64,000 bases of DNA from Verrucomicrobiia bacterium (lineage in GTDB: Bacteria; Verrucomicrobiota; Verrucomicrobiia; Verrucomicrobiales; DEV007), in assembly GCA_030425385.1 (NCBI GenBank), contig JAUIAH010000028.1, forward strand, positions 40,605 through 104,604. The letters run 5' to 3'. Below are positions 2,023-52,742 of this stretch, one piece after another (within the stretch, counting starts at the first letter, position 1; every line of letters begins with the position of its first letter). The position numbers and the translations under genes are program-made. The notes under the pieces were generated by a model that did not search any database, was not told where the DNA came from, and was given only the letters and a program-made list of their open reading frames with translations.

Positions 2023-2096
2023 ATGCCGCGCACCAGCCTGTGCACTCTGGTCTCCAAAACCGGATGCTCTCGGGGCAGCACCGAGGCGGCATGCCA
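2023..2096 (+). tRNA. tRNA-Trp(CCA)-like, first element of array
   Basis: Acceptor ATGCCGC/GCGGCAT is perfect with G discriminator and encoded CCA. The anticodon arm CTGGT/ACCGG has loop CTCCAAA (anticodon CCA). The T-stem CTCGG/CCGAG has the unusual loop GGCAGCA. The D region is only 17 nt and forms GCAC/GTGC directly after the acceptor, so U8/A9 are missing. A function as tRNA is likely but not certain. Confidence 0.55.
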
Positions 2097-2106
2097 AACC
2101 TTTAAC

Positions 2107-2960
2107 CCACTTTGATCTAACGATCATGGTGGCCTGGCATCACCAGATACCACACCTGTCGCAAGGCAGGGAAAGGAAACAACGTGCTCTGACGTTGTTC
2201 GCCTCTGAAACCTCGTTTCCGGGGACACCCAGGCAAACCCAGTCCTGTAAGCGTCGACGCCCTGTTCGGGATCGGCGCTATGTTGGAAGATGGGAGACGC
2301 TCCCGCCGCGGATGGCAAATGCTCACGCGGCGGTCGGGGGTAGCACCCTGAAGACTCTCCACGCCAAACATCGACAACCGAGGACCAAGGGCAGTCATGC
2401 AGTGCGAGGCGTTGCCGCCAAGAGCCGCATGGCAGTTGATCGGTAAGAGCGGAAACGGCTTCCAAGCCATCACGTTTCCGCTCAAGTCGCGTAAACCGTT
2501 CGAGACCTGCCAGCAACAGGCCGGACAAGAGGCGTGTGGCATTCCGTGATCCAAACGATCATGGACCCACCGGACGTGCACGTCTCTCTCAGAAGCGCCA
2601 ACTGCACATTGGTCTAACGCAAAGACGCGTCCACGATCATGACGAGAAATGGCTTAATGCCTGGGCACTCACGGGTGCAATCAGGTGGCAAGGGAGCCCG
2701 CAAAGCTCCTGAGCCTCGACGTCACGCCGCACGGTGGGGTAGCCCCCCTTCATGGCCCGCGAGGGTCGACGGTAGGCCGACCGTTGAGTAGTCATGATCG
2801 CATGGGAGACTCGCCACTCCCGAAAAACAAAGGCAGTCATGTCGTGAGACGTGGTGTGGGCTCCGGCCCTGCCACGTGGAAGAGTTGGCAACGCGAGGCC
2901 CGCAAGCCTCCGCGGTAATCCAACGCACGTCGCGATCGAAACGGGTGGCCTTCTCAACCC
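2107..2960 (+). ncRNA. Cluster of structured non-coding RNA segments
   Basis: No convincing gene is present, but the stretch is packed with perfect inverted repeats. Examples: CCACTTTGATC/GATCATGGTGG (one mismatch) at 2107-2132; CCGCCGCG/CGCGGCGG at 2303-2333; an 11-bp stem GAGCGGAAACG/CGTTTCCGCTC at 2447-2483; TCCGTGATC/GATCATGGA at 2543-2565; and a 10-bp long-range stem CGATCATGAC (2634-2643) with GTCATGATCG (2791-2800). CGATCATG and GGCAGTCATG (2390, 2832) recur, and several hairpins have a CGCAA loop. I read this as two or three diverged copies of an RNA family, possibly Ro-binding Y-like RNAs. That identity is an inference from the neighbouring TROVE gene and the end-to-end stem. Confidence 0.5.
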
Positions 2961-2973
2961 GTTCTAACACAAG

Positions 2974-3050
2974 CGTGTCGAGGTCGAAGTAGACGAGATG
3001 CGTGCCTTGGAAGCACGAGAAAGCAGGTGCGAGTCCTGCCGACGCGACCA
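2974..3050 (+). tRNA. tRNA-Pro(TGG), G55 type
   Basis: Acceptor CGTGTCG/CGACGCG, A73 and CCA encoded. The anticodon arm CGTGC/GCACG has loop CTTGGAA. The T-loop is TGCGAGT (G55), and the D-loop carries A-G where G18-G19 is expected. Confidence 0.85.
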
Positions 3051-3056
3051 ATTTCC

Positions 3057-3131
3057 TGTGGGATAAGTGTTGGTACTTGTCTCGGTCTCATAAGCCGAGG
3101 TTCGAGGGTTCGATTCCCTCTCCCGCAACCA
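3057..3131 (+). tRNA. tRNA-Met(CAT), canonical elbow
   Basis: Acceptor TGTGGGA/TCCCGCA with CCA. Anticodon arm TCGGT/GCCGA, loop CTCATAA. The T-loop TTCGATT and the D-loop GG are both canonical, unlike most of the array. A T1-A72 end pair argues against a standard initiator. A CAT anticodon could also be a lysidine Ile tRNA. Confidence 0.85.
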
Positions 3132-3139
3132 TTACATTG

Positions 3140-3240
3140 CGCAATTCCAGTTGGCGGAGCGCCCGCAAATCACTCGGCGAATGACGCCCCTAGAGCAGCA
3201 CTGCTGCTCAAATCCCAATCATCATTCATCATTCATCAAT
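3140..3240 (+). ncRNA. Spacer with perfect hairpin between tRNAs
   Basis: About 100 nt without tRNA or ORF. It contains the near-palindrome GAGCAGCACTGCTGCTC (about 3193-3209) and a CGCCCGCAAA segment like the loops of the 2.1-2.9 kb RNA cluster. It may be another member of that RNA family or a processing spacer. Confidence 0.3.
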
Positions 3241-3246
3241 GCCTAG

Positions 3247-3321
3247 TCTCCTGTGGTGAAACAGTATCACACGGCCCTGTTAAGGCCTGAGTTCTTGGTG
3301 CGAATCCAAGTGGGAGAGCCA
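3247..3321 (+). tRNA. tRNA-Asn(GTT), G55 type
   Basis: Acceptor TCTCCTG/TGGGAGA (two wobbles), CCA encoded. D-stem GTGA/TCAC with loop AACAGTA (A-G for G18-G19). Anticodon loop CTGTTAA. T-loop TGCGAAT. Confidence 0.85.
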
Positions 3322-3345
3322 TTTCATCGCCACAACGATAGAGCC

Positions 3346-3443
3346 GGGAGGGTAAGCCGAGAATCATAGGTCTATCGGCAACTGTCTTGAAAACAGTCGG
3401 TCCTTCAACGGGTGTGCAGGTTCGAGTCCTGTCCCTCCCGCCA
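3346..3443 (+). tRNA. tRNA-Ser(TGA), canonical elbow
   Basis: Acceptor GGGAGGG/CCCTCCC is perfect, CCA encoded. Anticodon loop CTTGAAA. It has a long class II variable arm, a T-loop TTCGAGT, and D-loop GG. One of the few array members with normal elbow residues. Confidence 0.9.
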
Positions 3444-3456
3444 ACATCCTTTCCAT

Positions 3457-3530
3457 GGTCGCATAGCTCACGTAGGAGAGCGCTAGCCTGAAGAGCTTGA
3501 GGGCAGGGTGCAACTCCCTAGCGGCCACCA
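3457..3530 (+). tRNA. tRNA-Phe(GAA), G55 type
   Basis: D-stem GCTC/GAGC, D-loop with A-G, anticodon loop CTGAAGA, T-loop TGCAACT. The acceptor can be drawn as GGTCGC/GCGGCC plus a mismatch, with A73 and CCA. The exact 5' end is one nucleotide uncertain. Confidence 0.75.
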
Positions 3531-3546
3531 ATCTCCTTTCCTTTCT

Positions 3547-3620
3547 TGCCCTGTAGCTCAAAAGCAGAGCACCCGGCCGATAACCGGAAGACCTCGGAGC
3601 GTTACCGAGCAGGGCGACCA
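3547..3620 (+). tRNA. tRNA-Ile(GAT) with C33, G55 type
   Basis: Acceptor TGCCCTG/CAGGGCG, A73 and CCA. D-stem GCTC/GAGC with A-G loop. The anticodon loop CCGATAA has C at position 33 in place of the near-invariant U. The T-loop AGCGTTA is of the second unusual class. Confidence 0.8.
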
Positions 3621-3633
3621 CACTTCTAACAGA

Positions 3634-3707
3634 GGTCCATTGGTGTAATAGCAACATGCCTGTCTGTCGAACAGGAGCCACCGGAGCATAACCGGTATGG
3701 ACCGCCA
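3634..3707 (+). tRNA. tRNA-Asp(GTC), G55 type
   Basis: Acceptor GGTCCAT/ATGGACC is perfect, G73 and CCA. D-stem GTGT/ACAT, loop AATAGCA. Anticodon loop CTGTCGA. T-loop AGCATAA. Confidence 0.88.
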
Positions 3708-3720
3708 TCTCATTTCAATT

Positions 3721-3794
3721 GTCCTCGTGGTGTAACAGAAGCATGACTCTGTGCGAAGGAGTCGGATCAGGTGCAAATCCTGGCGAGGATACCA
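3721..3794 (+). tRNA. tRNA-Arg(GCG), G55 type
   Basis: Acceptor GTCCTCG/CGAGGAT, A73 and CCA. D-loop AACAGAA. Anticodon loop GTGCGAA. T-loop TGCAAAT. A GCG anticodon is unusual for bacterial Arg, where ACG is the norm. Confidence 0.83.
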
Positions 3795-3797
3795 TAT

Positions 3798-3872
3798 GCT
3801 GGCCATGATGTAAGAGTCGCATTACGCCCTGTGAAGGCGTCCGTACGGGTGCAAATCCCGTTGGCCAGCCCA
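3798..3872 (+). tRNA. tRNA-His(GTG), G55 type
   Basis: Acceptor CTGGCCA/TGGCCAG is perfect. An extra G(-1) at 3798 faces C73, the identity feature of tRNA-His. Anticodon loop CTGTGAA. T-loop TGCAAAT. Retention of G(-1) argues that array tRNAs are under selection for aminoacylation. Confidence 0.88.
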
Positions 3873-3879
3873 CTTTCAT

Positions 3880-3952
3880 GCCTCTCGACCGAGCAAGTGA
3901 ACGGCCTGGATTGCAAATCCATGGTCGGTGGGAGCATTACCCACGAGAGGCT
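3880..3952 (+). tRNA. tRNA-Cys(GCA), G55 type, no encoded CCA
   Basis: Acceptor GCCTCTC/GAGAGGC is perfect, and CAC follows the discriminator instead of CCA. Anticodon loop TTGCAAA. D-loop with A-G. T-stem GTGGG/CCCAC with loop AGCATTA. Position 8 is G, not U. Confidence 0.78.
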
Positions 3953-3970
3953 CACTTCTATCTAGCAAAC

Positions 3971-4044
3971 GTACCATTCGTCCAACAGCAAGATGCCTGG
4001 CTTCCACCCAGGAGACGCCGGGGCAGCACCGGCATGGTACACCA
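3971..4044 (+). tRNA. tRNA-Gly(TCC), G55 type
   Basis: Acceptor GTACCAT/ATGGTAC is perfect, A73 and CCA. D-loop AACAGCA. Anticodon loop CTTCCAC. T-stem GCCGG/CCGGC with loop GGCAGCA. Confidence 0.85.
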
Positions 4045-4055
4045 GTTTCAACCAA

Positions 4056-4159
4056 CAGCCGCCGTCGCAAGGAAGGCAGATGTCTCTGGGAAGGGGAATC
4101 ATCACATCTGTCAGCAAATCGTCTTGAGGATGGTCATGGTTCAAAGACGGCGGCGGCTG
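4056..4159 (+). ncRNA. Y-RNA-like structured RNA inside tRNA array
   Basis: The two ends pair. GCCGCCGTC (4058-4066) is exactly complementary to GACGGCGGC (4146-4154), with an alternative register through a repeated CGG. An internal hairpin GCAGATGT/ACATCTGT lies at 4076-4111. An end-to-end stem enclosing a hairpin resembles Y RNAs, which Ro60-like proteins bind. A TROVE gene lies 1.8 kb downstream. A further hairpin GGATTCC/GGAATCC follows near 4173-4195. The Y-RNA identity is an inference. Confidence 0.5.
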
Positions 4160-4210
4160 ACGGGCCGAGACCGGATTCCCCACAAGCGGAATCCTGCCAG
4201 CATTCAAAAC

Positions 4211-4281
4211 GGGGGATTAGTTCAATAGAAGAACACCTGTCTTACAAACAGGAGGCGGTGGAGCATAACCACCATTCCCTA
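4211..4281 (+). tRNA. tRNA-Val(TAC), G55 type, no encoded CCA
   Basis: Acceptor GGGGGAT/ATTCCCT with wobbles, followed by A then CGCC, so CCA is not encoded. D-loop AATAGAA. Anticodon loop CTTACAA. T-stem GGTGG/CCACC with loop AGCATAA. Confidence 0.8.
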
Positions 4282-4299
4282 CGCCTTTTCGAGATTCAC

Positions 4300-4373
4300 G
4301 CGGCATTCGTTCAATAGTAGGATACGGGTATGCCAAGCCTGAGACCCCGGAGCGTTACCGGGATGCCGCACCA
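4300..4373 (+). tRNA. tRNA-Gly(GCC), G55 type
   Basis: Acceptor GCGGCAT/ATGCCGC is perfect, A73 and CCA. D-loop AATAGTA. Anticodon loop ATGCCAA. T-stem CCCGG/CCGGG with loop AGCGTTA. Confidence 0.87.
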
Positions 4374-4381
4374 CATTCCAT

Positions 4382-4469
4382 ACGAGGTGCTCCCACAGCG
4401 GCCTTCTAAGCCGCCGACATCAAACCGTGGGCAGGAAGTCAGGAGGTTCGAGTCCTCCACCTCGTGCCA
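4382..4469 (+). tRNA. Aberrant tRNA-Arg(TCT)-like, no D-arm
   Basis: Acceptor ACGAGGT/ACCTCGT is perfect with G73 and CCA. T-arm GGAGG/CCTCC has the canonical loop TTCGAGT. An arm GCGGC/GCCGC has loop CTTCTAA. Only 9 nt separate the acceptor from this arm, so there is no D-arm, and 27 nt follow it. CCCAC before the arm pairs with GTGGG after it, extending a stem. Either a rearranged pseudo-tRNA or a tRNA-like RNA with another role. Confidence 0.5.
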
Positions 4470-4495
4470 ACGCATCACTTAAATCAAATTTCCAC

Positions 4496-4572
4496 GCTTC
4501 TGTAGCTCAACGGACGAGAGCGTCTGGCTTCGAACCAGAAGGTTGTAGGTTCGAATCCTACCAGAAGTGCCA
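4496..4572 (+). tRNA. tRNA-Arg(TCG), canonical elbow
   Basis: Acceptor GCTTCTG/CAGAAGT, G73 and CCA. D-loop with GG. Anticodon arm TCTGG/CCAGA, loop CTTCGAA. T-loop TTCGAAT. One of the normal-elbow members. Confidence 0.9.
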
Positions 4573-4597
4573 GTCACCGAAGCATCAACTTTCCAAT

Positions 4598-4673
4598 TCC
4601 TCCGTGGCCGAGAAAGAAAGGCACTCCTCTCGTAAAGGAGCCCATGCCGGTGCAACGCCGGCCGGAGGATCCA
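4598..4673 (+). tRNA. tRNA-Thr(CGT), G55 type
   Basis: Acceptor TCCTCCG/CGGAGGA is perfect, T73 and CCA. D-stem GCC/GGC with A-rich loop including A-G. Anticodon arm CTCCT/AGGAG, loop CTCGTAA. T-stem GCCGG/CCGGC with loop TGCAACG. Confidence 0.83.
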
Positions 4674-4684
4674 CTTTAAACGTC

Positions 4685-4757
4685 GCTCGCGTAGCCCAAT
4701 AGCAGAGGCCACCGACTTAAAATCGGTTCAGTGCGGGTGCAACTCCCGCCGCGAGCA
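4685..4757 (+). tRNA. tRNA-Leu(TAA) with short variable arm, G55 type
   Basis: Acceptor GCTCGCG/CGCGAGC is perfect, then A-GCA in place of CCA. D-loop AATAGCA. Anticodon arm ACCGA/TCGGT, loop CTTAAAA. T-loop TGCAACT. Bacterial tRNA-Leu normally has a long class II variable arm. Here only about five nucleotides are present. Confidence 0.8.
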
Positions 4758-4763
4758 GCAAAC

Positions 4764-4840
4764 GGCCATGTAGCCCAACCAGCAGAGGCGCCGGTCTTAG
4801 AAACCGGAGGTTGTGGGTGCAAATCCCACCATGGCTACCA
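4764..4840 (+). tRNA. tRNA-Leu(TAG) with short variable arm, G55 type
   Basis: Acceptor GGCCATG/CATGGCT, A73 and CCA. D-loop AACCAGCA. Anticodon arm CCGGT/ACCGG, loop CTTAGAA. Short variable loop AGGTT. T-stem GTGGG/CCCAC with loop TGCAAAT. Again class I in shape although the anticodon is Leu. Confidence 0.83.
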
Positions 4841-4851
4841 CTTTCCTTGGA

Positions 4852-5025
4852 TCACGCTTCCAACTCAGCCCCATCAGGGCGATCAGCCATCGACGGCCGT
4901 TTCCCGGCAAGGGAAAGGAGGGTCTGCACGCCAAAGTAAGCTCCAATGAGCATCAAAAGCGGAACAAACACGACACTTAGGAAGACTGTGATATCTATGA
5001 AAAGCTGTTTAATTTCGGGATGCAT
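4852..5025 (-). CDS. Small single-pass membrane protein antisense in tRNA array
   Basis: A 57-codon ORF opposite to the tRNAs encodes MHPEIKQLF, then a hydrophobic segment (about residues 9-40, with FLSVVFVPLLMLIGAYF), then a charged tail ending GAELEA. The clean hydrophobic helix and the fit in the only wide tRNA-free gap favour a real gene. No Shine-Dalgarno is evident. Function unknown. A membrane toxin or sensor is possible but not shown. Confidence 0.5.
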   Translation of the reverse strand: MHPEIKQLFIDITVFLSVVFVPLLMLIGAYFGVQTLLSLAGKRPSMADRPDGAELEA

Positions 5026-5134
5026 GACTATCGATTGGGAGGATCACTGTCTAAGAGCACGATGATGGCATGAAAGTCACGTACTTTTGTAGTTATTCTC
5101 ATACAAGCTCTCGCGTGTTCCGAAAAGTTTAGAG

Positions 5135-5210
5135 GGGCGCCCATGTTCCAAAGGGGCGATGCTGCCTTGCAAGCAGCGTGTGGCGGGTGCAAGTCCCGTG
5201 GCGTCCACCA
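5135..5210 (+). tRNA. tRNA-Ala(TGC), G55 type
   Basis: Acceptor GGGCGCC/GGCGTCC, A73 and CCA. Anticodon arm GCTGC/GCAGC, loop CTTGCAA. T-loop TGCAAGT. The D region is odd, forming GTTCC/GGGGC around AAA instead of a standard D-arm. Confidence 0.75.
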
Positions 5211-5231
5211 ATCGCAGACCCGCTCATTTCG

Positions 5232-5324
5232 GGAGTCTTAACCGGGCAAGCGTACCGGCATCGTCTGCTAAGCGAATGGTCCCACCCATCGTGGGATGGG
5301 GTGCAAGTCCTCAGGACTCCGCCA
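5232..5324 (+). tRNA. tRNA-Ser(GCT), G55 type with long variable arm
   Basis: Acceptor GGAGTCT/GGACTCC, G73 and CCA. The D-loop includes A-G. Anticodon loop CTGCTAA. The variable arm TCCCAC/GTGGGA keeps class II Ser form. T-loop TGCAAGT. Confidence 0.82.
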
Positions 5325-5333
5325 ATTTAACTC

Positions 5334-5409
5334 AGGCTCGTAGCTCAAACAGTGGAGCAGCGGTCTTTTAATCCGCTGGGTGAGAGTGCAAGTCTCTCCG
5401 AGCCTACCA
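5334..5409 (+). tRNA. tRNA-Lys(TTT), G55 type
   Basis: Acceptor AGGCTCG/CGAGCCT is perfect, A73 and CCA. D-stem GCTC/GAGC with A-G in the loop. Anticodon loop CTTTTAA with a T-T closing mismatch. T-stem GAGAG/CTCTC with loop TGCAAGT. Confidence 0.83.
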
Positions 5410-5437
5410 CTTTCCGCAATTGCTTGGAAGCTTGGAG

Positions 5438-5513
5438 TCCCCTGTGGCAGAAATAGTAATGCGCCGGCCTTTGAAGCCGGAGTGTGTGGGTGCAAGTCCC
5501 TCCGGGGGTGCCA
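5438..5513 (+). tRNA. tRNA-Gln(TTG), G55 type
   Basis: Acceptor TCCCCTG/CGGGGGT with an unpaired first position, G73 and CCA. D-loop AAATAGTA. Anticodon arm CCGGC/GCCGG, loop CTTTGAA. T-loop TGCAAGT. Confidence 0.8.
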
Positions 5514-5521
5514 CTTTGTCA

Positions 5522-5596
5522 GTCCCTGTAGTGTAGTGGCCAGCACGACAGACTTTCGATCTGTAGTCGCGGGTTCGATTCCCGCCAGGGATGCCA
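5522..5596 (+). tRNA. tRNA-Glu(TTC), canonical elbow
   Basis: Acceptor GTCCCTG/CAGGGAT, G73 and CCA. D-loop AGTGGCCA with GG. Anticodon arm ACAGA/TCTGT, loop CTTTCGA. T-stem GCGGG/CCCGC with loop TTCGATT. Confidence 0.9.
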
Positions 5597-5601
5597 CATT
5601 T

Positions 5602-5658
5602 CCAATGAGTCAATGGATGATCGATGATGCCCTCTTCGATCATGTGATCTCGCATTGG
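5602..5658 (+). ncRNA. Nested stem between tRNA-Glu and tRNA-Gln
   Basis: CCAATG (5602-5607) and CATTGG (5653-5658) close a segment. Inside it, ATGATCGA (5617-5624) pairs perfectly with TCGATCAT (5636-5643). The inner arm carries the CGATCATG word that recurs in the 2.1-2.8 kb RNA cluster. A small structured RNA or processing signal, function unproved. Confidence 0.4.
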
Positions 5659-5732
5659 TCCGGGTCGTTCAATAGTGAGGACGTCGGTCTCTGAAACCGA
5701 AGATGATGGTGCAACTCCATCCCCGGATGCCA
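5658..5732 (+). tRNA. tRNA-Gln(CTG), G55 type
   Basis: Acceptor GTCCGGG/CCCGGAT, G73 and CCA. D-stem GTTC/GGAC, loop AATAGTGA. Anticodon arm TCGGT/ACCGA, loop CTCTGAA. T-stem GATGG/CCATC with loop TGCAACT. Confidence 0.85.
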
Positions 5733-5743
5733 CTCAAGAACAA

Positions 5744-5819
5744 AGGTCCGTAGCTCAACAGTGAGAGCAACCGCCTCTTAAGCGGAAGGTTGCGGGTGCG
5801 AATCCCGCCGGGCCCACCA
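5744..5819 (+). tRNA. tRNA-Lys(CTT), G55 type, last array member
   Basis: Acceptor AGGTCCG/CGGGCCC with an A-C mismatch at 1-72, A73 and CCA. D-stem GCTC/GAGC with A-G in the loop. Anticodon loop CTCTTAA. T-stem GCGGG/CCCGC with loop TGCGAAT. Confidence 0.83.
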
Positions 5820-5965: not shown

Positions 5966-7747
5966 ATGCACCCTAACAACACACTCTCTCCCGAATCTCT
6001 TGGTCCAGCCGAGAAACTCCTGGATTTGATCATCAACTTTCCTGATCACCTCTGGCACCACCGCCCCGGCGTGATCGTTGAGGGCAAATGGCGCGCGGCT
6101 CGCCCAGAAGAGATTCGCACGTTTCGAACGCAGGGACGTCTCCGCGCGGGAACGTTTCGGCCGCCTGGCCCTAACACCGAAGCCATCGAGCAGGTATACG
6201 CGACGCTTGGCGACATCTGGCAAACGAACAACGATCTGGCAGCCCGCTTAGCTTCCTATGTGATGCATCACACGGATTGGCGCGACATGAAAGTCGTTTG
6301 CGCAGCCTTCATGCTCGTGCAATCACGCTGTGGCCAACCCGTGACCGAGGACCTTCATGGCGAACGCCATGTTCTCTTCCACGATGACGATTTCCGAGAA
6401 ATCGGTGAAGCCATGGTCAAGGCCTACGAGCGTGGTTCTGCGAAGATGCTGAACCCGAAACTGATCCGGCGAATCGGTGATGTGTTAGCGCTTCCTGGCG
6501 TCGTAGAAATCAATCGTCTGTTAGGCTTCGGCCACGCGCAGAAGCGCAAGCCCTTCACTGGCCGCTATGACAAAGCGGTCCGCGACTGGCTGGCCTTTCG
6601 CGAGGCGAACCCTTCGCTTCTCGAGGGACTCCGCAAAGGCGGCTATGCGTCTACGGTGCGCGTTCTCGCCCGAAGAGTGGGTTACAAGCCCAAGTCACAA
6701 GCCTTCTTTGAAGCGCTGGCCTGGCCTCAGAAGCAACACGCGAACGGTCACCGAACAATTGGCCTTGAAGGCTTACAGATCCACAAGATCTCGTTTGAGG
6801 GACTCACCGAAACGCAGATCTGTGAGATCATCGATCGTGAGACGCTGGGGTGGAAACAGGTCATGGGGCTTTTGCCCAAAGACATCGGTCTGACGCCGGC
6901 GATCTTTGTCGCGCTGATTGATAGGATGTCTGACAAAGACCTCGTGATTCTCACCCCAACCCTTGACGAGTTCCAACTGCTCAAGCATGCTCCCATCCGG
7001 GAGCGTTGGGAAGCCGCCCTACGCGGACAAGAGGATCAACGCGCACGCAACGTGGCGAAGAACCTGAAAGATCGCGAAACGGCATTAGCGCTAGAGAATG
7101 CGGCCGATGGAGTTGTCACCAAGGCCGTGCAAGAAGCCACGAAAGATCGTGATGTTCACGTCATGTTCCTCATCGACGTCAGCGCCTCTATGGAAGGCGC
7201 CATCGCGCTTTCTCGTGAAGCGCTCTCGATGATGGTGCAAGGGTTTCCGCAAGAGAAGCTCTACATCTCGTGCTTCAACACGGTGGGCAACTGGCTCAAA
7301 CCACGCCACTACTCAGCAGCGGGCATCGCACACATGCTAGGGCACGTGCGCGCCGCAGGCGGGACCAACCACAGTGTGGGTGTGCAAGTGTTCCAGATGA
7401 ATCGTGTTCGGATTCCCCAAGACGCGGAGTTGATCCTCTTCGTCGTCGGTGATGAAGCAGGCGAATCGGGACGTCAGTTCGCCCGGGCCATACGGGATTC
7501 CGGCTACCATCCGACCGCCTTCGCCCACATGGTAAACGTGGCGCCCGGTTGGGCCCGTGGATCCACCGTGCGAGATGCGGCTTCCGAACTCGGCTTGCCT
7601 TACACCGAAGTCGTCGTGGACCAGTTCTGCGATGTCTATCAAGTGCAACGCACGCTTAAAGCAGTGCTCGAAGCCACGCCTCATCGGACGGGAATCTCGC
7701 TCGTAGAGAAGATCCTCCAGACCGAGTTGCTCGTGAAACCTTACTAA
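5966..7747 (+). CDS. TROVE/vWA (Ro60-like) RNA-binding protein
   Basis: 593 aa. ATG is preceded by AAAGGAGG at a good distance. Residues about 15-390 are alpha-helical. A stretch around 195-260 (W..FREANP, then RRVGYKPKS) recalls the TROVE HEAT-like ring. Residues 395-575 form a von Willebrand A domain with MIDAS motif DVSAS (404-408), T467 and D496. Ro60 proteins use this ring-plus-vWA layout to bind misfolded RNA and Y RNAs. It follows the tRNA array and is followed at once by a Y-RNA-like gene, which supports a Ro role. TROVE assignment is by pattern only. A hairpin at 7776-7805 may end the transcript. No signal peptide, so cytosolic. Confidence 0.7.
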   Translation: MHPNNTLSPESLGPAEKLLDLIINFPDHLWHHRPGVIVEGKWRAARPEEIRTFRTQGRLRAGTFRPPGPNTEAIEQVYATLGDIWQTNNDLAARLASYVMHHTDWRDMKVVCAAFMLVQSRCGQPVTEDLHGERHVLFHDDDFREIGEAMVKAYERGSAKMLNPKLIRRIGDVLALPGVVEINRLLGFGHAQKRKPFTGRYDKAVRDWLAFREANPSLLEGLRKGGYASTVRVLARRVGYKPKSQAFFEALAWPQKQHANGHRTIGLEGLQIHKISFEGLTETQICEIIDRETLGWKQVMGLLPKDIGLTPAIFVALIDRMSDKDLVILTPTLDEFQLLKHAPIRERWEAALRGQEDQRARNVAKNLKDRETALALENAADGVVTKAVQEATKDRDVHVMFLIDVSASMEGAIALSREALSMMVQGFPQEKLYISCFNTVGNWLKPRHYSAAGIAHMLGHVRAAGGTNHSVGVQVFQMNRVRIPQDAELILFVVGDEAGESGRQFARAIRDSGYHPTAFAHMVNVAPGWARGSTVRDAASELGLPYTEVVVDQFCDVYQVQRTLKAVLEATPHRTGISLVEKILQTELLVKPY

Positions 7748-7820: not shown

Positions 7821-7947
7821 CTGCGGGATGCAATCGGCCGGAAGTTACAAGCTAGCTCATTCGGTAGAGCATCTGATCAGAACTCAGAATGTGGTTGGTT
7901 CGAATCCAACGCTGATACAAACACTTCTCTCCACTCGCATCCCGCAG
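7821..7947 (+). ncRNA. Y-RNA-like RNA: 11-bp end stem enclosing a tRNA mimic
   Basis: CTGCGGGATGC (7821-7831) is perfectly complementary to GCATCCCGCAG (7937-7947). Between them, 7846-7917 folds like a tRNA: D-arm GCTC/GAGC with GG, anticodon-like arm TCTGA/TCAGA, and T-arm GTTGG/CCAAC with loop TTCGAAT. The acceptor is imperfect (5 of 7 pairs), the anticodon-like loop TCAGAAC lacks U33, and no CCA follows. So it is a mimic, not a tRNA. Published bacterial Y RNAs combine a Ro-binding end stem with a tRNA-like module and lie beside the Ro gene. This element matches both points. The direct repeat GACTCTTTCCT flanks it (7812, 7947). Confidence 0.75.
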
Positions 7948-8835: not shown

Positions 8836-9075
8836 ATGAAATCAGCAACGATCAACATCACCTATCAAGGCCTCAGCGCCAACTACCTCACCCCACTTCC
8901 CAAGAACGCGAGCGATGCCATGATTCGACGTGTCTGTGAGGAAGCGATCCGCGGCGGCGAGGTACCAGAGCTTCCTCGCGCCATTCCCGCCAACGCCTTC
9001 GCCGCTCACGTGGTGGACCGCTTCCAGGGCGCCAAGAACCAGTTCATCGTGCGCCCGCAAGTGCCGTTCGGCTAA
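8836..9075 (+). CDS. 79-aa protein with C-terminal Gly, possible ubiquitin-like partner
   Basis: Begins with a strand-like ATINITYQG, then a helix (DAMIRRVCEEAI), a second helix (AFAAHVVDRF), and a final strand NQFIVRPQVPFG ending in glycine at the stop codon. Small size, strand-helix-strand order, a terminal Gly and the E1-like gene 22 nt downstream are what one expects of a ubiquitin-like or sulfur-carrier protein. ParB/ThiF-related (PRTRC) cassettes also pair a protein of about 70 aa with a ThiF protein. Only one terminal Gly is present, so the ubiquitin-like reading is a hypothesis. Confidence 0.65.
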   Translation: MKSATINITYQGLSANYLTPLPKNASDAMIRRVCEEAIRGGEVPELPRAIPANAFAAHVVDRFQGAKNQFIVRPQVPFG

Positions 9076-9097
9076 CATTGAACCACTAACCACCCGC

Positions 9098-9679
9098 ATG
9101 AAGATCACCATCTGCGGCGGGGGAGCCCTCGGCTCTCACGTCCTCTACCTGTCCCGCAGCCTCTCCAATGCTCGCTTTGGAGTCATCGATAACGACCGCG
9201 TGGAGACGAAGAATTTGGCAGCTCAATGGTTTGTGAAACCGATGCTCGGCAAGAACAAGGCCACCGCCCTGAAGTTGCAGATGGCCAACTTCTTCGGCTG
9301 CGCGATCGATGCCTCCCCTGTCCGACTCAGCAAAGTGAACATGCAGGAATTGTTAGGGTCCACCGATCTCGTCGTTGATTGTTTCGACAACGGCGCTAGC
9401 CGCCAGTTAATTCAGGACTTTGTCAGAGAAACGTCCACACCCTGTGTCCACGCGGGGCTGGCAGCGGATGGGACCTTCGGAGCCGTCCGCTGGGACCGCG
9501 ACTTCGTCATCGATCACGAACCGGTGGAAGGACAGGCCACCTGCGAAGGAGGCGCGTTTCTGCCTCTTATCGTGCAGGCGTCAGTGTCTTTAGTCGAAGC
9601 GATTCGCACGTTTCAAACGGAGCGTTCCGAAACCAACTGGAACATCCGACCAGGGAGAACGGAGAAGCTCGAAACGTGA
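9098..9679 (+). CDS. ThiF/E1-like adenylating enzyme
   Basis: 193 aa from the ATG at 9098, chosen because it opens directly with the Rossmann strand MKITICGGGALGSH. Family features: glycine-rich nucleotide loop (residues 7-12), acidic D31-N-D followed by KNLAAQWF where E1s have NLNRQ, K53 in LGKNKA, and DLVVDCFDN around residue 93. Cysteines at CVH and TCEGG could be catalytic. There is no CxxC zinc pair. E1/ThiF enzymes adenylate the C-terminal Gly of ubiquitin-like proteins, and the gene just upstream ends in Gly. The arginine-finger position is altered, so activity is not certain. Its pairing with a Ro/tRNA-array locus is unusual. Confidence 0.85.
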   Translation: MKITICGGGALGSHVLYLSRSLSNARFGVIDNDRVETKNLAAQWFVKPMLGKNKATALKLQMANFFGCAIDASPVRLSKVNMQELLGSTDLVVDCFDNGASRQLIQDFVRETSTPCVHAGLAADGTFGAVRWDRDFVIDHEPVEGQATCEGGAFLPLIVQASVSLVEAIRTFQTERSETNWNIRPGRTEKLET

Positions 9680-10000: not shown

Positions 10001-10142
10001 ATCCAAGTGCGCAACGGCACCGGTGATCTTGACCATTCCTTTCATTCTAACAAACCACTTTCGGTAGCCTGCGGCCTGGAAAGCATCCTGGAAAGGTCCC
10101 GCGTATCGGTCCCGGAAACTACGGGGACTTCAAATCCTCCAG

Positions 10143-10199
10143 TAGCTCATTGGTAGAGCATCTGACTCATCATCAGAAGGTAGCTGGTTCGAATCCAGC
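10143..10199 (+). ncRNA. tRNA-like module without acceptor stem
   Basis: D-arm GCTC/GAGC with GG, anticodon arm TCTGA/TCAGA with loop CTCATCA (reads CAT), and T-arm GCTGG/CCAGC with loop TTCGAAT are all perfect. The flanks that should form the acceptor do not pair, and there is no CCA. It closely resembles the mimic in the 7821-7947 RNA. I read it as the tRNA-like domain of a second Y-like RNA joined to the stem at 10212-10378, not as a working tRNA-Met. Confidence 0.6.
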
Positions 10200-10211
10200 C
10201 GTACATCCATT

Positions 10212-12246: not shown

Positions 12247-12419
12247 GCTAGAATACGCAGCGATGTAGGCAGCGGATTCCAACCGCCGTCCCAACTTTCG
12301 AAACAGGCTCTCACCTGTGATTGGCAGCCCTTGAAGAACGAACACCAACCCGCGAAGAAGCGCCGAGGCGATGCATTCATTCTTCTAACATCACCATTAC
12401 CTTCAACTACCATCATCAC

Positions 12420-13004
12420 ATGAGCTGCCTGCACAAGCATATCGTCCTCGTTCTCAACCGGAACTGGCAAGCCATCAACACGACCAGCCCAGCCATGGCG
12501 TTCGCCCAGATGGCGACGGATGTGGCCACCGCCTTGGACATCCAGGGCACGGACTCGATGGTTCCCACTCCGTGGGAGGACTGGCAGGACTTGCCCGTGC
12601 GCAACACGGATGCCTTCATTGGAACGGTGCATGGCAGCGTGCGCGTGCCCACGGTGATCGTGCTGGCCAACTTCAACCGGGTGCCGCTCAAACGTCCCAA
12701 GTTCAGTGCTCGCGCCATCCGCGAACGCGATGGTGGTCGCTGCCAATACACGGGACGACCGTTGGCTCCCGAAGAGGGGAACATCGACCACGTCGTCCCG
12801 CGCTCGCGCGGTGGTGCCACCTCCTGGGACAACTGCGTGCTCGCCGCCAAGGACGTGAATTCGCGAAAAGCAGATCGCCTTCCCAAGGAAGCGGGCCTGC
12901 GGCTCCTCGCCGAACCTCGCGCCCCTCGGGAAGTGCCCATGACCTTTCTGCTCCGCAATTTCCACGGCATCTCCGACTGGGACCCCTTCCTGGTCAGGCG
13001 TTGA
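12420..13004 (+). CDS. HNH endonuclease
   Basis: 194 aa from the ATG at 12420 (MSCLHKHIVLVLNRNW). The C-terminal half holds a standard HNH core: RDGGRCQYTGRPL, then IDHVVPRSRGG (the catalytic His of the DH pair), then SWDNCVLAAKDVNSRK with the metal-binding Asn. The second zinc-knuckle Cys pair is absent. Proteins of this layout are usually free-standing nucleases related to McrA. The gene follows the Ro locus, separated by 200 nt of non-coding sequence. It may be part of a defence-type neighbourhood, but no methylase or other restriction gene is near. Confidence 0.85.
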   Translation: MSCLHKHIVLVLNRNWQAINTTSPAMAFAQMATDVATALDIQGTDSMVPTPWEDWQDLPVRNTDAFIGTVHGSVRVPTVIVLANFNRVPLKRPKFSARAIRERDGGRCQYTGRPLAPEEGNIDHVVPRSRGGATSWDNCVLAAKDVNSRKADRLPKEAGLRLLAEPRAPREVPMTFLLRNFHGISDWDPFLVRR

Positions 13005-13154: not shown

Positions 13155-16100
13155 ATGAGAGATCCCAAGACAACCATCGGACTAAATCAGGGCTACACCC
13201 CAGAAGGCAAGGACACCCAAACGATCAAAGAATACGTCAATTTGAAGCTGGCCGCCCGCGGCTTCAGCATCGTTGGCGACGAAGCGGACTTTCCCTTCCT
13301 TGAGATGGGACGTTCGCTTCTGGCAAATTTCCAGGAGCGGATGCGTCTGTTGTCCGATCGTCTGGCGCCCGTGGATCAGCGGATCGATCAATTCCTCCGC
13401 GACTACCTGACAGGCATCCCGGACGACATCTTTGACAAGGACACGCCGCGAATTCCTAACAATGCTCTTATCCTAGAGAAGCACGGCATTGCGCGGATGC
13501 TCAGTTTGCCTGCCAATGAGGATCGCTTCACGTCTGACATTGTCTCCTCTTTCCGCGTGGACCAGGGAGTCATTCACAATCCGGCAAAGGATCGACGTAC
13601 GACCAAAGGCGTCTTCCATGTGACGGAAGGTGGGTTGCCCATTCCAGCTGACAAGAAGGCCATTCCCAAAGTGACCTTTGCCCACCTGCTTAAAGCCGCT
13701 CTGAATCCGCCAGAATCGCTGCTCACCGTACCCTATACGGTCAATCAGGAAAAGCCTGCCCACGCGTTTCTAGGCCTCCTCCTCCGCCCTATCGTCACTC
13801 CCGAGGTCCCTGGCATTCATCCACAACGCAGCATGGAAATGCGTTTCTTTGCCCCAGGCAACCTCGTCAGCAATCTCGACTTTGTGGAATCGATCTTTGG
13901 CAATGCAGGCGATCCCTTTCTTCCGGAGAATAATGCCGCCCTGGATTCGGAACAGTGGACCGGGCACACGGGGTGCGCCATCCTCGCGCCCCATCTCATC
14001 TATTTGCGCAAGAAAGATGTGGGCCTACCCCACATCAACGACGCCACGGATCGCCAGAAACGCGACGGCATGTGCTGGGAGAATGAGGACGAACTCTACA
14101 ATGATGGCGGCGCTTTCAAGATCACCTGCCGCGACAAGACCGGCGTGATGGTGACCATCATTGCCGATAACTACTTTGGCTACTGCAAGAAGGAGGTGAA
14201 GACCCAGATCAGCTACGCCGCCAATTTGTTAGGCAACGCCGAAGAGGAACATGCGGGGGGCGCCATTGCGTTTCCTTGCTTTGATCATGGCGAATACTTT
14301 GCCCTCAATCGTCGCGACTCCGCGCTCGACCATTCTTATGAAGATGCTCTTAGCATTCTCGGCGATTCGGCCGATGTGCGCCCCGAGGGATACGCCATCG
14401 ACAAGCGATTTCCCGAGATCTTCTATGTGAGTGAGAACACCGAGATCGATCTCCATCAGCAACGGGTCACGTGGACAGACAGCCAGGGCATTGAGCATGA
14501 AATGCGCCTCCGCCCCAATGGGCACTATGTGTATCCGTCAGGTTACAAAGTCTCCATGAGGCAGCCCATGGAGGGAGCGCGTTGGCGCTTGGTGGGCACG
14601 CAGGCAGAAGGCACCTTCTGTCATAAGCCCTGCACGGTATCCGGTGGAGGGAAATCAGAGATCTCCAAATCGCTCGCCGATGCGATGAATTCCGGTCCTG
14701 TCATCATCCCTAATTTCCACTCGGTGATGGAGAAAGTGAAAGAGGTCTTGGAACGCAATTACTGGGATCGTTATCCCAATCCGCGCAAGAATGCCGAGGA
14801 GAGCCGCTCCATTCTCGATACCAAACGCTCTCTTGGCTCCGTGCTACGCCTTCTGACGCCGCACGAAGAGTGCACGGATGAGCACAATCAATACATCAGA
14901 TCGTTGCCAAAGGAGGTCATTGAAATGGCGCTGATCATCAAGCGTTTCTACAAAGACGACTGGGGTGATTGGGATCAATGGCATCACCGCTTCAGCGTTG
15001 ATGTCATTGATGGTTCACCGGGTTATGAACTCAAGTATCAGAATCAACTCCTGCTGAATCGTTATCTCCGCGTGGGTTATGATCCTCAAGGCGGTGCCTG
15101 GCGCACCTTTCGTCTGCGCAAAGACTTTCTCCCTGCGCAAAAGCTGCAACGAGAAGATGATATTTCGGCGAGCATGGTGCTTCCCGTCAGCGGTGATGAT
15201 GGGCTCCACCCCGAGCTGCCGGCGGGCACTTACAAATTCATCGCCAACTGCGAATGCCGTTTCTTCCAGCGTCCCGACGACGCCATCCATCGCGGCTATG
15301 ATAAAGTGACCGAACAAGACTTTTCCAAGCCAGGAAATTTCTTCTCCAACTACGAACCCATCACTCGGGAGCAGGCCCGCAAGATGGTGGCGGATACCAT
15401 CCGCTTTGGACATTTCACCAAGCCAGTCAAACGACGTATTCGCGCCTTTGTGAAAGCGGATTCGCCCGAGTATGTGGCCTCGCCAGACCAGCCGCGTTTG
15501 GTCGAAGGCAAGCCGTCCAAGAACCCACGCTATTTGCAAGACCGCCTCGATCTTCACGATGAGGAGGGCGAATACTTGGCAGATGTCGGCATGCGCCTTT
15601 ATCGACGCTTGCCCGCGGGCAAGCCAGCACTCACGCCCGTGAATGCGGTCCTCCCCGGCAGACGCAACAATCCCCCCAATGTCGACCAGGGCATCCGCGC
15701 GCTCGCCGTCTTTAATCCTATCCATTACCAAGAGCTGCCTGAGCTCTTTATGGACTTCATTGCCAGCCTGACCGGCAAGTCGCCCTCGACGACCGGAGCG
15801 GGATCAGAGGGCGCCCTCACTAAAGGCCCCTTCAATGCGCTCTTGCCCATTGTGGACCTGAATAACGCCCTCTTGGCTTTCATTCTCACCAAACAAGCTT
15901 GTTATGTCAGCGCCGCTGCCTATATCGGCCCCAAATACCGGGTGGACCATGATATCAGCCTCCTGGTGCCAGAAGTATGGTCGCGTATGCACATCCGCGA
16001 ACGCGATCCGCAGCATTTGATCGAGCACGGCATGCTCGAACTCTGTGAGGACTTCGAGCATCAAGGCAAGACCGTGCTTGCGAGCCGCTTGGGCTACCGC

Positions 16101-16637
16101 ATCACGGAGAAATTTGTCGATCGTTTCTTCGGACGTCTCTTTAGCGATCCTTTATCAGTCTTTCCTGAAGAAATGCTCCGGCCCGAGAAGCAAGATGCAG
16201 ACGCTTTCGCTGATGGCGTGGCCAATATCGTTGAAGCGCAACAGCGGGTGGCCAAGCTCTATTTCGATGACCAAGCCGTCCGCGATGCCTGCCCGCCTCT
16301 CAAAGCCCTGCTCACTATCATGGCCCATGGCGATTGCGATGGCATGACGGCGACTAGTCCTGAATTGCGTGCGCTCTTTGACTATGACGCCGTCATTGAG
16401 AGTGATTGGTATCGCCACCGTCTCGCCGCCAAAGTACAAGTCGACGCTCAACTCTGGCGACGCCATATCGAGAACTTGCAGAATTTCTCACGACAAGGCG
16501 TCTACCAGAAAGAGATCGAACGCCTCGGCATTCAATCCCGATTGGAAAGCGCTCGGCTTCACCTAGCAAAGGTTGAAAGCACTGAGTATCTCGAATCGCT
16601 GCGAGGAACGATTGGAGCCGACCCGTCCGTTGTATAA
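13155..16637 (+). CDS. Very large protein resembling PPi-type PEP carboxykinase
   Basis: 1160 aa, cytosolic, no signal peptide. Around residue 495-505 a phosphate-loop-like motif TVSGGGKSEISKSL occurs, comparable to the kinase-1 loop of PEP carboxykinases. Acidic and His/Lys-rich motifs flank it (FCHKPCTV, then SGPVIIPNFHSV). The size, far above the 520-620 aa of ATP/GTP enzymes, matches the pyrophosphate-dependent PEPCK known from amoebae and propionibacteria, which interconverts oxaloacetate plus PPi and PEP plus CO2 plus Pi. The assignment is from memory of motif and length, so it stays moderate. Monocistronic. Confidence 0.55.
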   Translation: MRDPKTTIGLNQGYTPEGKDTQTIKEYVNLKLAARGFSIVGDEADFPFLEMGRSLLANFQERMRLLSDRLAPVDQRIDQFLRDYLTGIPDDIFDKDTPRIPNNALILEKHGIARMLSLPANEDRFTSDIVSSFRVDQGVIHNPAKDRRTTKGVFHVTEGGLPIPADKKAIPKVTFAHLLKAALNPPESLLTVPYTVNQEKPAHAFLGLLLRPIVTPEVPGIHPQRSMEMRFFAPGNLVSNLDFVESIFGNAGDPFLPENNAALDSEQWTGHTGCAILAPHLIYLRKKDVGLPHINDATDRQKRDGMCWENEDELYNDGGAFKITCRDKTGVMVTIIADNYFGYCKKEVKTQISYAANLLGNAEEEHAGGAIAFPCFDHGEYFALNRRDSALDHSYEDALSILGDSADVRPEGYAIDKRFPEIFYVSENTEIDLHQQRVTWTDSQGIEHEMRLRPNGHYVYPSGYKVSMRQPMEGARWRLVGTQAEGTFCHKPCTVSGGGKSEISKSLADAMNSGPVIIPNFHSVMEKVKEVLERNYWDRYPNPRKNAEESRSILDTKRSLGSVLRLLTPHEECTDEHNQYIRSLPKEVIEMALIIKRFYKDDWGDWDQWHHRFSVDVIDGSPGYELKYQNQLLLNRYLRVGYDPQGGAWRTFRLRKDFLPAQKLQREDDISASMVLPVSGDDGLHPELPAGTYKFIANCECRFFQRPDDAIHRGYDKVTEQDFSKPGNFFSNYEPITREQARKMVADTIRFGHFTKPVKRRIRAFVKADSPEYVASPDQPRLVEGKPSKNPRYLQDRLDLHDEEGEYLADVGMRLYRRLPAGKPALTPVNAVLPGRRNNPPNVDQGIRALAVFNPIHYQELPELFMDFIASLTGKSPSTTGAGSEGALTKGPFNALLPIVDLNNALLAFILTKQACYVSAAAYIGPKYRVDHDISLLVPEVWSRMHIRERDPQHLIEHGMLELCEDFEHQGKTVLASRLGYRITEKFVDRFFGRLFSDPLSVFPEEMLRPEKQDADAFADGVANIVEAQQRVAKLYFDDQAVRDACPPLKALLTIMAHGDCDGMTATSPELRALFDYDAVIESDWYRHRLAAKVQVDAQLWRRHIENLQNFSRQGVYQKEIERLGIQSRLESARLHLAKVESTEYLESLRGTIGADPSVV

Positions 16638-52665: not shown

Positions 52666-52742
<77 letters not shown>

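Follow-up and report, generated by a model that had tools for sequence, protein, structure and literature searches.

The tRNA array units of mycobacteria consist of a long run of tRNA genes on one strand that serves most amino acids and is redundant with the chromosomal tRNAs, accompanied by an HNH gene and, in several units, by a GOLLD RNA, and an anti-defence role has been proposed for them (PMC9569102; PMC6582537; PMC12803027; these and the other published reports are cited from excerpts). In Anabaena, a plasmid carries a tRNA operon of 26 genes (trn) that is silent until translational stress, and in Nostoc sp. ATCC 53789 an HNH gene lies ahead of the tRNA array (PMC10272220). The rsr-yrlBA-rtcBA operon combines a Ro60-family protein, a Y RNA with a tRNA-like domain and RtcB, and in Salmonella it is induced by damaged tRNAs (PMC7790460). 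Here, we describe a tRNA array in a 64,000-nucleotide stretch of DNA from a Verrucomicrobiia bacterium (contig JAUIAH010000028.1, positions 40,605 to 104,604), referred to as the window. The array shares its one-strand layout, its redundancy, its HNH gene and possibly a GOLLD RNA with the mycobacterial units, its HNH company with Nostoc, and a Ro60-family protein, possibly a Y RNA and, in relatives, RtcB with the rsr operon. Most of its tRNAs have an exchanged elbow pair, with A18 and G55 in place of G18 and U55. To our knowledge, the contact between G18 and pseudouridine 55 is an almost universal feature of the tRNA elbow.

The window array and its elbow pair

The array spans positions 2023-5819 on the + strand and holds 26 tRNA-like genes within 3.8 kb, all in the same orientation and separated by 4-28 nt at 20 of the 25 intergenic places, so that it has the many tRNA genes and high density of a tRNA array unit. 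Every amino acid is represented except Tyr. ARAGORN detects 14 members, the Rfam tRNA model adds more and our own cloverleaf scan finds 24, with Ser-TGA and Arg-TCT added by reading the sequence; at the threshold used for counting, the scan recovers 23 of the 26. The members are as follows, single positions being starts:

2023-2096, +, tRNA-Trp(CCA), first member; T-loop GGCAGCA (G55), encoded CCA, odd D-arm
2974, +, Pro-TGG
3057, +, Met-CAT
3247, +, Asn-GTT
3346, +, Ser-TGA
3457, +, Phe-GAA
3547, +, Ile-GAT
3634, +, Asp-GTC
3721, +, Arg-GCG
3799, +, His-GTG
3880, +, Cys-GCA
3971-4044, +, Gly-TCC
4211, +, Val-TAC
4300-4373, +, Gly-GCC
4383-4469, +, Arg-TCT
4496, +, Arg-TCG
4598, +, Thr-CGT
4685-4757, +, Leu-TAA
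4764-4840, +, Leu-TAG
5135, +, Ala-TGC
5232, +, Ser-GCT
5334, +, Lys-TTT
5438, +, Gln-TTG
5522, +, Glu-TTC
5658, +, Gln-CTG
5744, +, Lys-CTT

Position 55 of the T-loop is G in 21 of these 26 genes, which thus lack the ordinary G18-U55 elbow pair, and U in five (Met 3057, Ser-TGA 3346, Arg-TCT 4383, Arg-TCG 4496 and Glu 5522). A first-pass annotation, made from the sequence alone, had given the same counts, which the cloverleaf scan together with sequence reading bears out; it had placed the start of the array at 2974, whereas the actual start is tRNA-Trp at 2023, and 2974..5819 contains the 25 tRNA-like genes after Trp, with G55 in 20. The G55 members have T54/A58 in 14 cases (TGCRA), A54/T58 in five (AGCRT; Ile, Asp, Cys, Val and Gly-GCC) and G54/G58 in two (GGCAG; Trp and Gly-TCC). 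Their D-loops, read by eye, have A18-G19 in 19 of the 21, and AG is present also in the odd D-arms of the remaining two, Trp and Ala, which the annotation had rightly called ambiguous. All four of the U55 members in which a D-arm is present (Met, Ser-TGA, Arg-TCG and Glu) have G18-G19, again as claimed.

The genome carrying the window (8.0 Mb, 74 contigs) provides the contrast. All 42 other tRNAs called by ARAGORN, 41 in fetched stretches elsewhere and one at 52666, combine TTCRA with GG. G55 throughout the genome, which the annotation had named as its counter-case, is not seen; G55 is a trait of the array and not a genome-wide habit. The proposed loss of TruB modification holds in one part, as G55 cannot be a substrate for pseudouridine-55 formation, and the genome encodes a TruB homologue.

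Covariation of positions 18 and 55 in related loci

The paired switch recurs in the arrays of related genomes. Our cloverleaf scan of 97 related loci yielded 1,634 distinct tRNA genes, 1,512 of them countable; the other 122 were excluded because position 56 was not C, position 55 was neither G nor U, or no D-arm was called. Among the countable U55 genes 230 have GG, none has AG and 26 have neither, while among the G55 genes 1,133 have AG, 19 have GG and 104 have neither, and 15 of the 19 fit AG too in another register. After shuffling of the D-loop letters, AG falls at a permitted position in 19% and GG in 8.5%, compared with the observed AG in 1,133 of the 1,256 G55 genes that have C56 and for which a D-arm was called. 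In D-loops of 7 nt, where the register is fixed, the combination 55/18 is G/A in 379 genes, U/G in 64, G/G in 22, G/C in nine and U/A in none. The 22 G/G cases comprise seven with AG one place earlier, two with GG and 13 Leu tRNAs in which A18 is apparently missing. As G55 was part of the pattern by which the loci of the three-in-a-row searches described below were chosen, its frequency in these data does not measure prevalence; the state at position 18 was unselected.

Both elbow states are found for all 20 amino acids. Furthermore, closely related genes that share an anticodon differ at 18 and 55 simultaneously, with as much as 95% identity in the rest of the sequence (Leu-GAG 95%, Arg-TCG 91% and 89%, Gln-TTG 89%), and a G55 partner at 75% identity or more exists for 43 of the 230 U55 genes. 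Taken together, a coordinated switch over 20 amino acids and many genomes, in which clear mixed states are rare, points to selection acting on the 18/55 contact itself; the two-sided switch and the selection behind it had both been proposed in the first-pass annotation.

Positions 54/58 of the 1,289 G55-C56 tRNAs in these loci are T-A in 937, A-T in 129, G-G in 126 and C-A in 56. The Leu tRNAs that seem to lack A18 (e.g. L079 9077, L173 1768) have an AATGCAG-like D-loop of 7 nt and keep G19. A second co-change in the elbow is seen where position 56 is not C, as position 19 is then often altered too: U55-G56 genes have GC in five of six, G55-G56 genes have AC in 12 of 23, and G55-A56 genes have U at a possible position 19 in 13 of 25.

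Signs of working tRNAs

Set against a table of 31 tRNAs from their own chromosome, the array tRNAs have the matching discriminator base in 999 of 1,221 cases, compared with 462 (standard deviation 14) for shuffled labels. G3:U70 is present in 56 of 58 Ala tRNAs and in three of 1,231 of other isotypes, C1:G72 in 95 of 97 Pro tRNAs and G-1 in 31 of 55 His tRNAs. The G55-C56 tRNAs retain G53-C61 (1,283/1,289) and R57 (1,288/1,289), and 904 of the 1,289 encode CCA; C56 with G19 is kept in most G55 tRNAs. With these charging signals kept, the array genes seem to encode functional tRNAs in which the elbow pair has been exchanged.

Some members are individually unusual. Arg-TCT (4383-4469) lacks a D-arm, and GTGGG in its long variable region could pair with the 5' CCCAC, while the Phe member has a one-base irregularity. 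The variable loops of Leu-TAA (4685-4757) and Leu-TAG (4764-4840) are short, as called by our parser for 88 of 125 G55 Leu tRNAs across loci. Both array Gly tRNAs (3971-4044 and 4300-4373) have A73, and three chromosomal Gly tRNAs read have U73; across loci, the discriminator of 94 G55 array Gly tRNAs is U in 47 and A in 44. Inside the array, 4057-4157 is a stretch resembling a long hairpin RNA, in which the scans used call no tRNA.

Neighbouring genes and RNAs

The array is accompanied by the following features:

2527..2960, +, GOLLD RNA-like (RF02032, 91.2 bits, E 3.3e-23, below the curated cut-off of 150 bits)
5966..7747, +, VWA protein of 593 aa, Ro60/TROVE-like predicted fold
7821..7947, +, candidate Y RNA; arms 7821-7845/7923-7947 are 76% complementary and enclose a tRNA mimic at 7846-7918
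8930..9679, +, ThiF-family (E1-like) protein
10136..10206, +, second tRNA mimic, lacks an acceptor stem and precedes the SPFH gene; counterparts in loci L076 and L093
10431..11231, +, SPFH/Band_7 protein, a recurring neighbour of related arrays
12321..13004, +, HNH endonuclease (HNH_4), the commonest neighbour of related arrays

The predicted fold places the 5966..7747 protein in the Ro60 family, and the HNH gene gives the array the company of the GOLLD/HNH type. In the mimic at 7846-7918, the elbow is of the ordinary GG/TTC kind and the acceptor is mispaired; the Rfam scan makes no YrlA call at 7821-7947. Beside the HNH gene, 13155-16637 encodes a protein of 1,160 aa that matches nothing in Pfam or PADLOC.

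Distribution of related arrays

A pattern of two neighbouring TGCRA T-arms matches 55 of 189 Verrucomicrobiales genomes, which is an upper bound, as the backwards control matches 12 and some matches are plainly non-tRNA. Twenty loci picked from these matches for spread and fetched at up to 20 kb all contain at least one G55 tRNA, and 19 have nine or more tRNAs, six or more of them with G55-C56. A three-in-a-row pattern matches at least 117 stretches in named genomes and 42 in virus contigs. Among the 159 matches listed, 83 hold at least four tRNAs; 53 of these come from named genomes and 30 from virus contigs. Most of the other matches hold no tRNA. The 53 named array loci among the matches listed are from Verrucomicrobiota (40), Planctomycetota (4), deltaproteobacteria/Myxococcota (7, one of them in Nannocystis exedens DSM 71) and Staphylococcus (2).

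The neighbours of 103 array loci include HNH (40), TROVE (24), RtcB (22), SPFH (13) and RlaP (12) genes, none of which occurs in 71 loci with at most one tRNA. Among 76 independent array loci, which neither fed the neighbour profiles nor repeat a locus that did, HNH is found in 22, RtcB in 16, TROVE in ten, SPFH in two and RlaP in one, with at least one of the five in 36. GOLLD lies inside the arrays of L085 (151.9 bits, above the 150-bit cut-off) and L076 (142.4 bits). YrlA gives five matches in relatives, at 31-45 bits and below the 69-bit cut-off; weak matches stand beside TROVE genes in L076, L080, L094 and L085. In 23 of the 26 existing virus records with array loci, which were those examined, a T4-type portal gene is found in 11, a terminase in five and at least one of the two in 13, while the portal is found in 0 of 14 control genomes, which argues that large tailed phages carry the re-keyed tRNA type.

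A proposed spare tRNA set and its rivals

The ordinary elbow has residue 18 inserted between 57 and 58, where it pairs with 55 (PMC4810234; PMC7912444). Where T-loops interlock in other RNAs, the fifth residue of one loop, typically A, fills that gap and faces residue 2 of its partner loop (PMC4810234), a precedent that makes A18 against G55 believable. In the re-keyed tRNAs, A18 would slot between 57 and 58 and pair with G55, so that the L-shape would hold without pseudouridine 55. By analogy with the Salmonella Ro60 operon, the Anabaena array and phage tRNAs that rescue phages by replacing tRNAs degraded by defences (PMC11555353), the locus is best read as a cassette for spare tRNAs and RNA repair that phages probably mobilise. 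The cassette would be switched on by tRNA damage or infection, the swap would make its tRNAs hard for elbow-reading nucleases to attack or would free them from a need for TruB-type modification, and the spare tRNAs would sustain protein synthesis while the cell's own tRNAs are under attack. We give a probability of about 0.5 to the array being such a spare set, with a re-keyed elbow that lets it work when elbow-reading enzymes attack host tRNAs or fail to modify them. The elbow-evasion step in this reading is an inference, and freedom from pseudouridine 55 is its main rival. A more specific form, in which A18-G55 with U-A, A-U or G-G at 54-58 is a second elbow solution and an all-isotype barcode by which the translation set of a phage or element survives one elbow-reading nuclease that removes the ordinary tRNAs of the cell, is tentative and seems to us rather unlikely.

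Several observations weigh against the spare-set reading. Arrays with like neighbours, on the Mycolicibacterium pCBMA213_1 and Methylibium RPME01 plasmids and in virus Rctr197k, keep U55, and so do half or more of the members in several deltaproteobacterial/Myxococcota arrays, compared with 5/26 here. None of the five neighbours is seen in 40 of the 76 independent array loci, within the short flanking stretch covered. In the genome carrying the window there is no TROVE Pfam match at E 1, and RtcB and RlaP are both on other contigs than the array; RtcB is on C60 and C37 only and adjoins arrays in some relatives. U8 is present in 952 and U33 in 1,114 of the 1,289 G55-C56 tRNAs, compared with 30/30 on the chromosome by the same scan, a shortfall of which part may be scan error. 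The work on phage tRNA evasion cited here concerns anticodon loops (PMC10264068). Moreover, 13 G55 Leu tRNAs of related loci appear to lack A18. Finally, G18:U55 plays a role in leucine identity in E. coli (PMC9976931), so the Leu members may serve poorly as substrates.

The main rival assumes that a purine-purine A18-G55 pair is stable without pseudouridine 55 or m5U54, which would suit tRNAs made in a burst while modification enzymes are in short supply, and involves no nuclease. It accords with the removal of the TruB target by G55 in a host that has TruB, with carriage by large phages and with the loss of the m5U54 target (54 not U) in 345 of 1,289 G55 tRNAs. U54 is however kept in about three quarters, and the phage arrays of Tunturi_5 (TTC with GG in 24/26, + strand) and Rctr197k keep U55, and we consider this rival possible, though on the doubtful side.

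By historical accident, A18/G55 could have originated on one or a few occasions in an array lineage and then been propagated through transfer and through duplications in which the anticodon changed, without benefit, the pair being held in place by the cost of intermediates. The best same-anticodon match in another locus has a median of 0.88 for the first 230 G55 genes against 0.68 for U55, the closest relative on the own chromosome is of the same isotype in only 305 of 1,071 cases, and among the 53 named array loci listed only three phyla or groups have the swap, all in keeping with such a history. The occurrence of both states in 20 amino acids and the recent double switches, which would need a repeated bad intermediate or co-conversion, make it improbable.

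The array members could also serve a dedicated function outside the ribosome, as the peptidoglycan tRNA-Gly of staphylococci does. Staphylococcal non-proteinogenic tRNA-Gly has G55. Peptidoglycan tRNA-Gly likewise lacks GG at 18-19 (PMC4052509), and the two Staphylococcus loci matched by the pattern (L110 and L159) each have three G55-C56 tRNAs without AG among ordinary tRNAs. In the re-keyed arrays, all isotypes are involved and G19-C56 is mostly kept. The T-stem pair 51-63 matters for EF-Tu, and it has not shifted to a weak pair, G51-C63 being the commonest (483/1,289). On these grounds, a dedicated role is highly improbable. Decaying pseudogenes or misaligned loops, to which the odd members (Arg-TCT without D-arm, the Phe irregularity and the A18-less Leu tRNAs) might be ascribed, are contradicted by the kept charging signals and the paired changes and are very improbable.

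More than 1,000 tRNA genes changed on both sides constitute a natural experiment on the elbow contact and its modification, and allow a test of whether the tRNA sets of phages and plasmids carry a mark by which they evade attacks directed at host tRNAs. In addition, the link of tRNA arrays to Ro60, Y-RNA-like and RNA-ligase repair genes suggests a testable job for such arrays.

Comparison with known systems

The Mycolicibacterium pCBMA213_1 array has U55 in all 26 called tRNAs, as has the Methylibium RPME01 array (26/26; one tRNA is called U55/AG, and its 11-nt loop holds GG too), unlike the window array with G55 in 21 of 26. The Nostoc ATCC 53789 array differs as well, since 21 of its 23 called tRNAs are ordinary and two have G55/A18. 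Compared with the rsr-yrlBA-rtcBA operon, the window has an attached tRNA array, beside which RtcB does not lie. Virus Rctr197k (KX853510; L271, 160000-197311) follows the same plan as the window, with a Ro60-like protein 36% identical to the 5966-7747 product, HNH, ThiF and 41 annotated tRNAs, but has TTC in 38/38 tRNAs called on the array strand and GG in 37, so cassette and swap are separable. Since U55 persists in arrays that have similar neighbours, the swap is not accounted for by any neighbour, and the idea of a resistance tied to the neighbouring genes is weakened by the HNH arrays and by Rctr197k with its Ro60-like and ThiF proteins. The staphylococcal non-proteinogenic tRNA-Gly also departs from G18-G19, with reported escape from EF-Tu (PMC4052509; PMC9976931), but is a single isotype with UU or CU at 18-19, whereas the re-keyed arrays have a matched A18-G19 in all isotypes. 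The re-keyed elbow is thus a new variant among tRNA arrays and not a general property of them.

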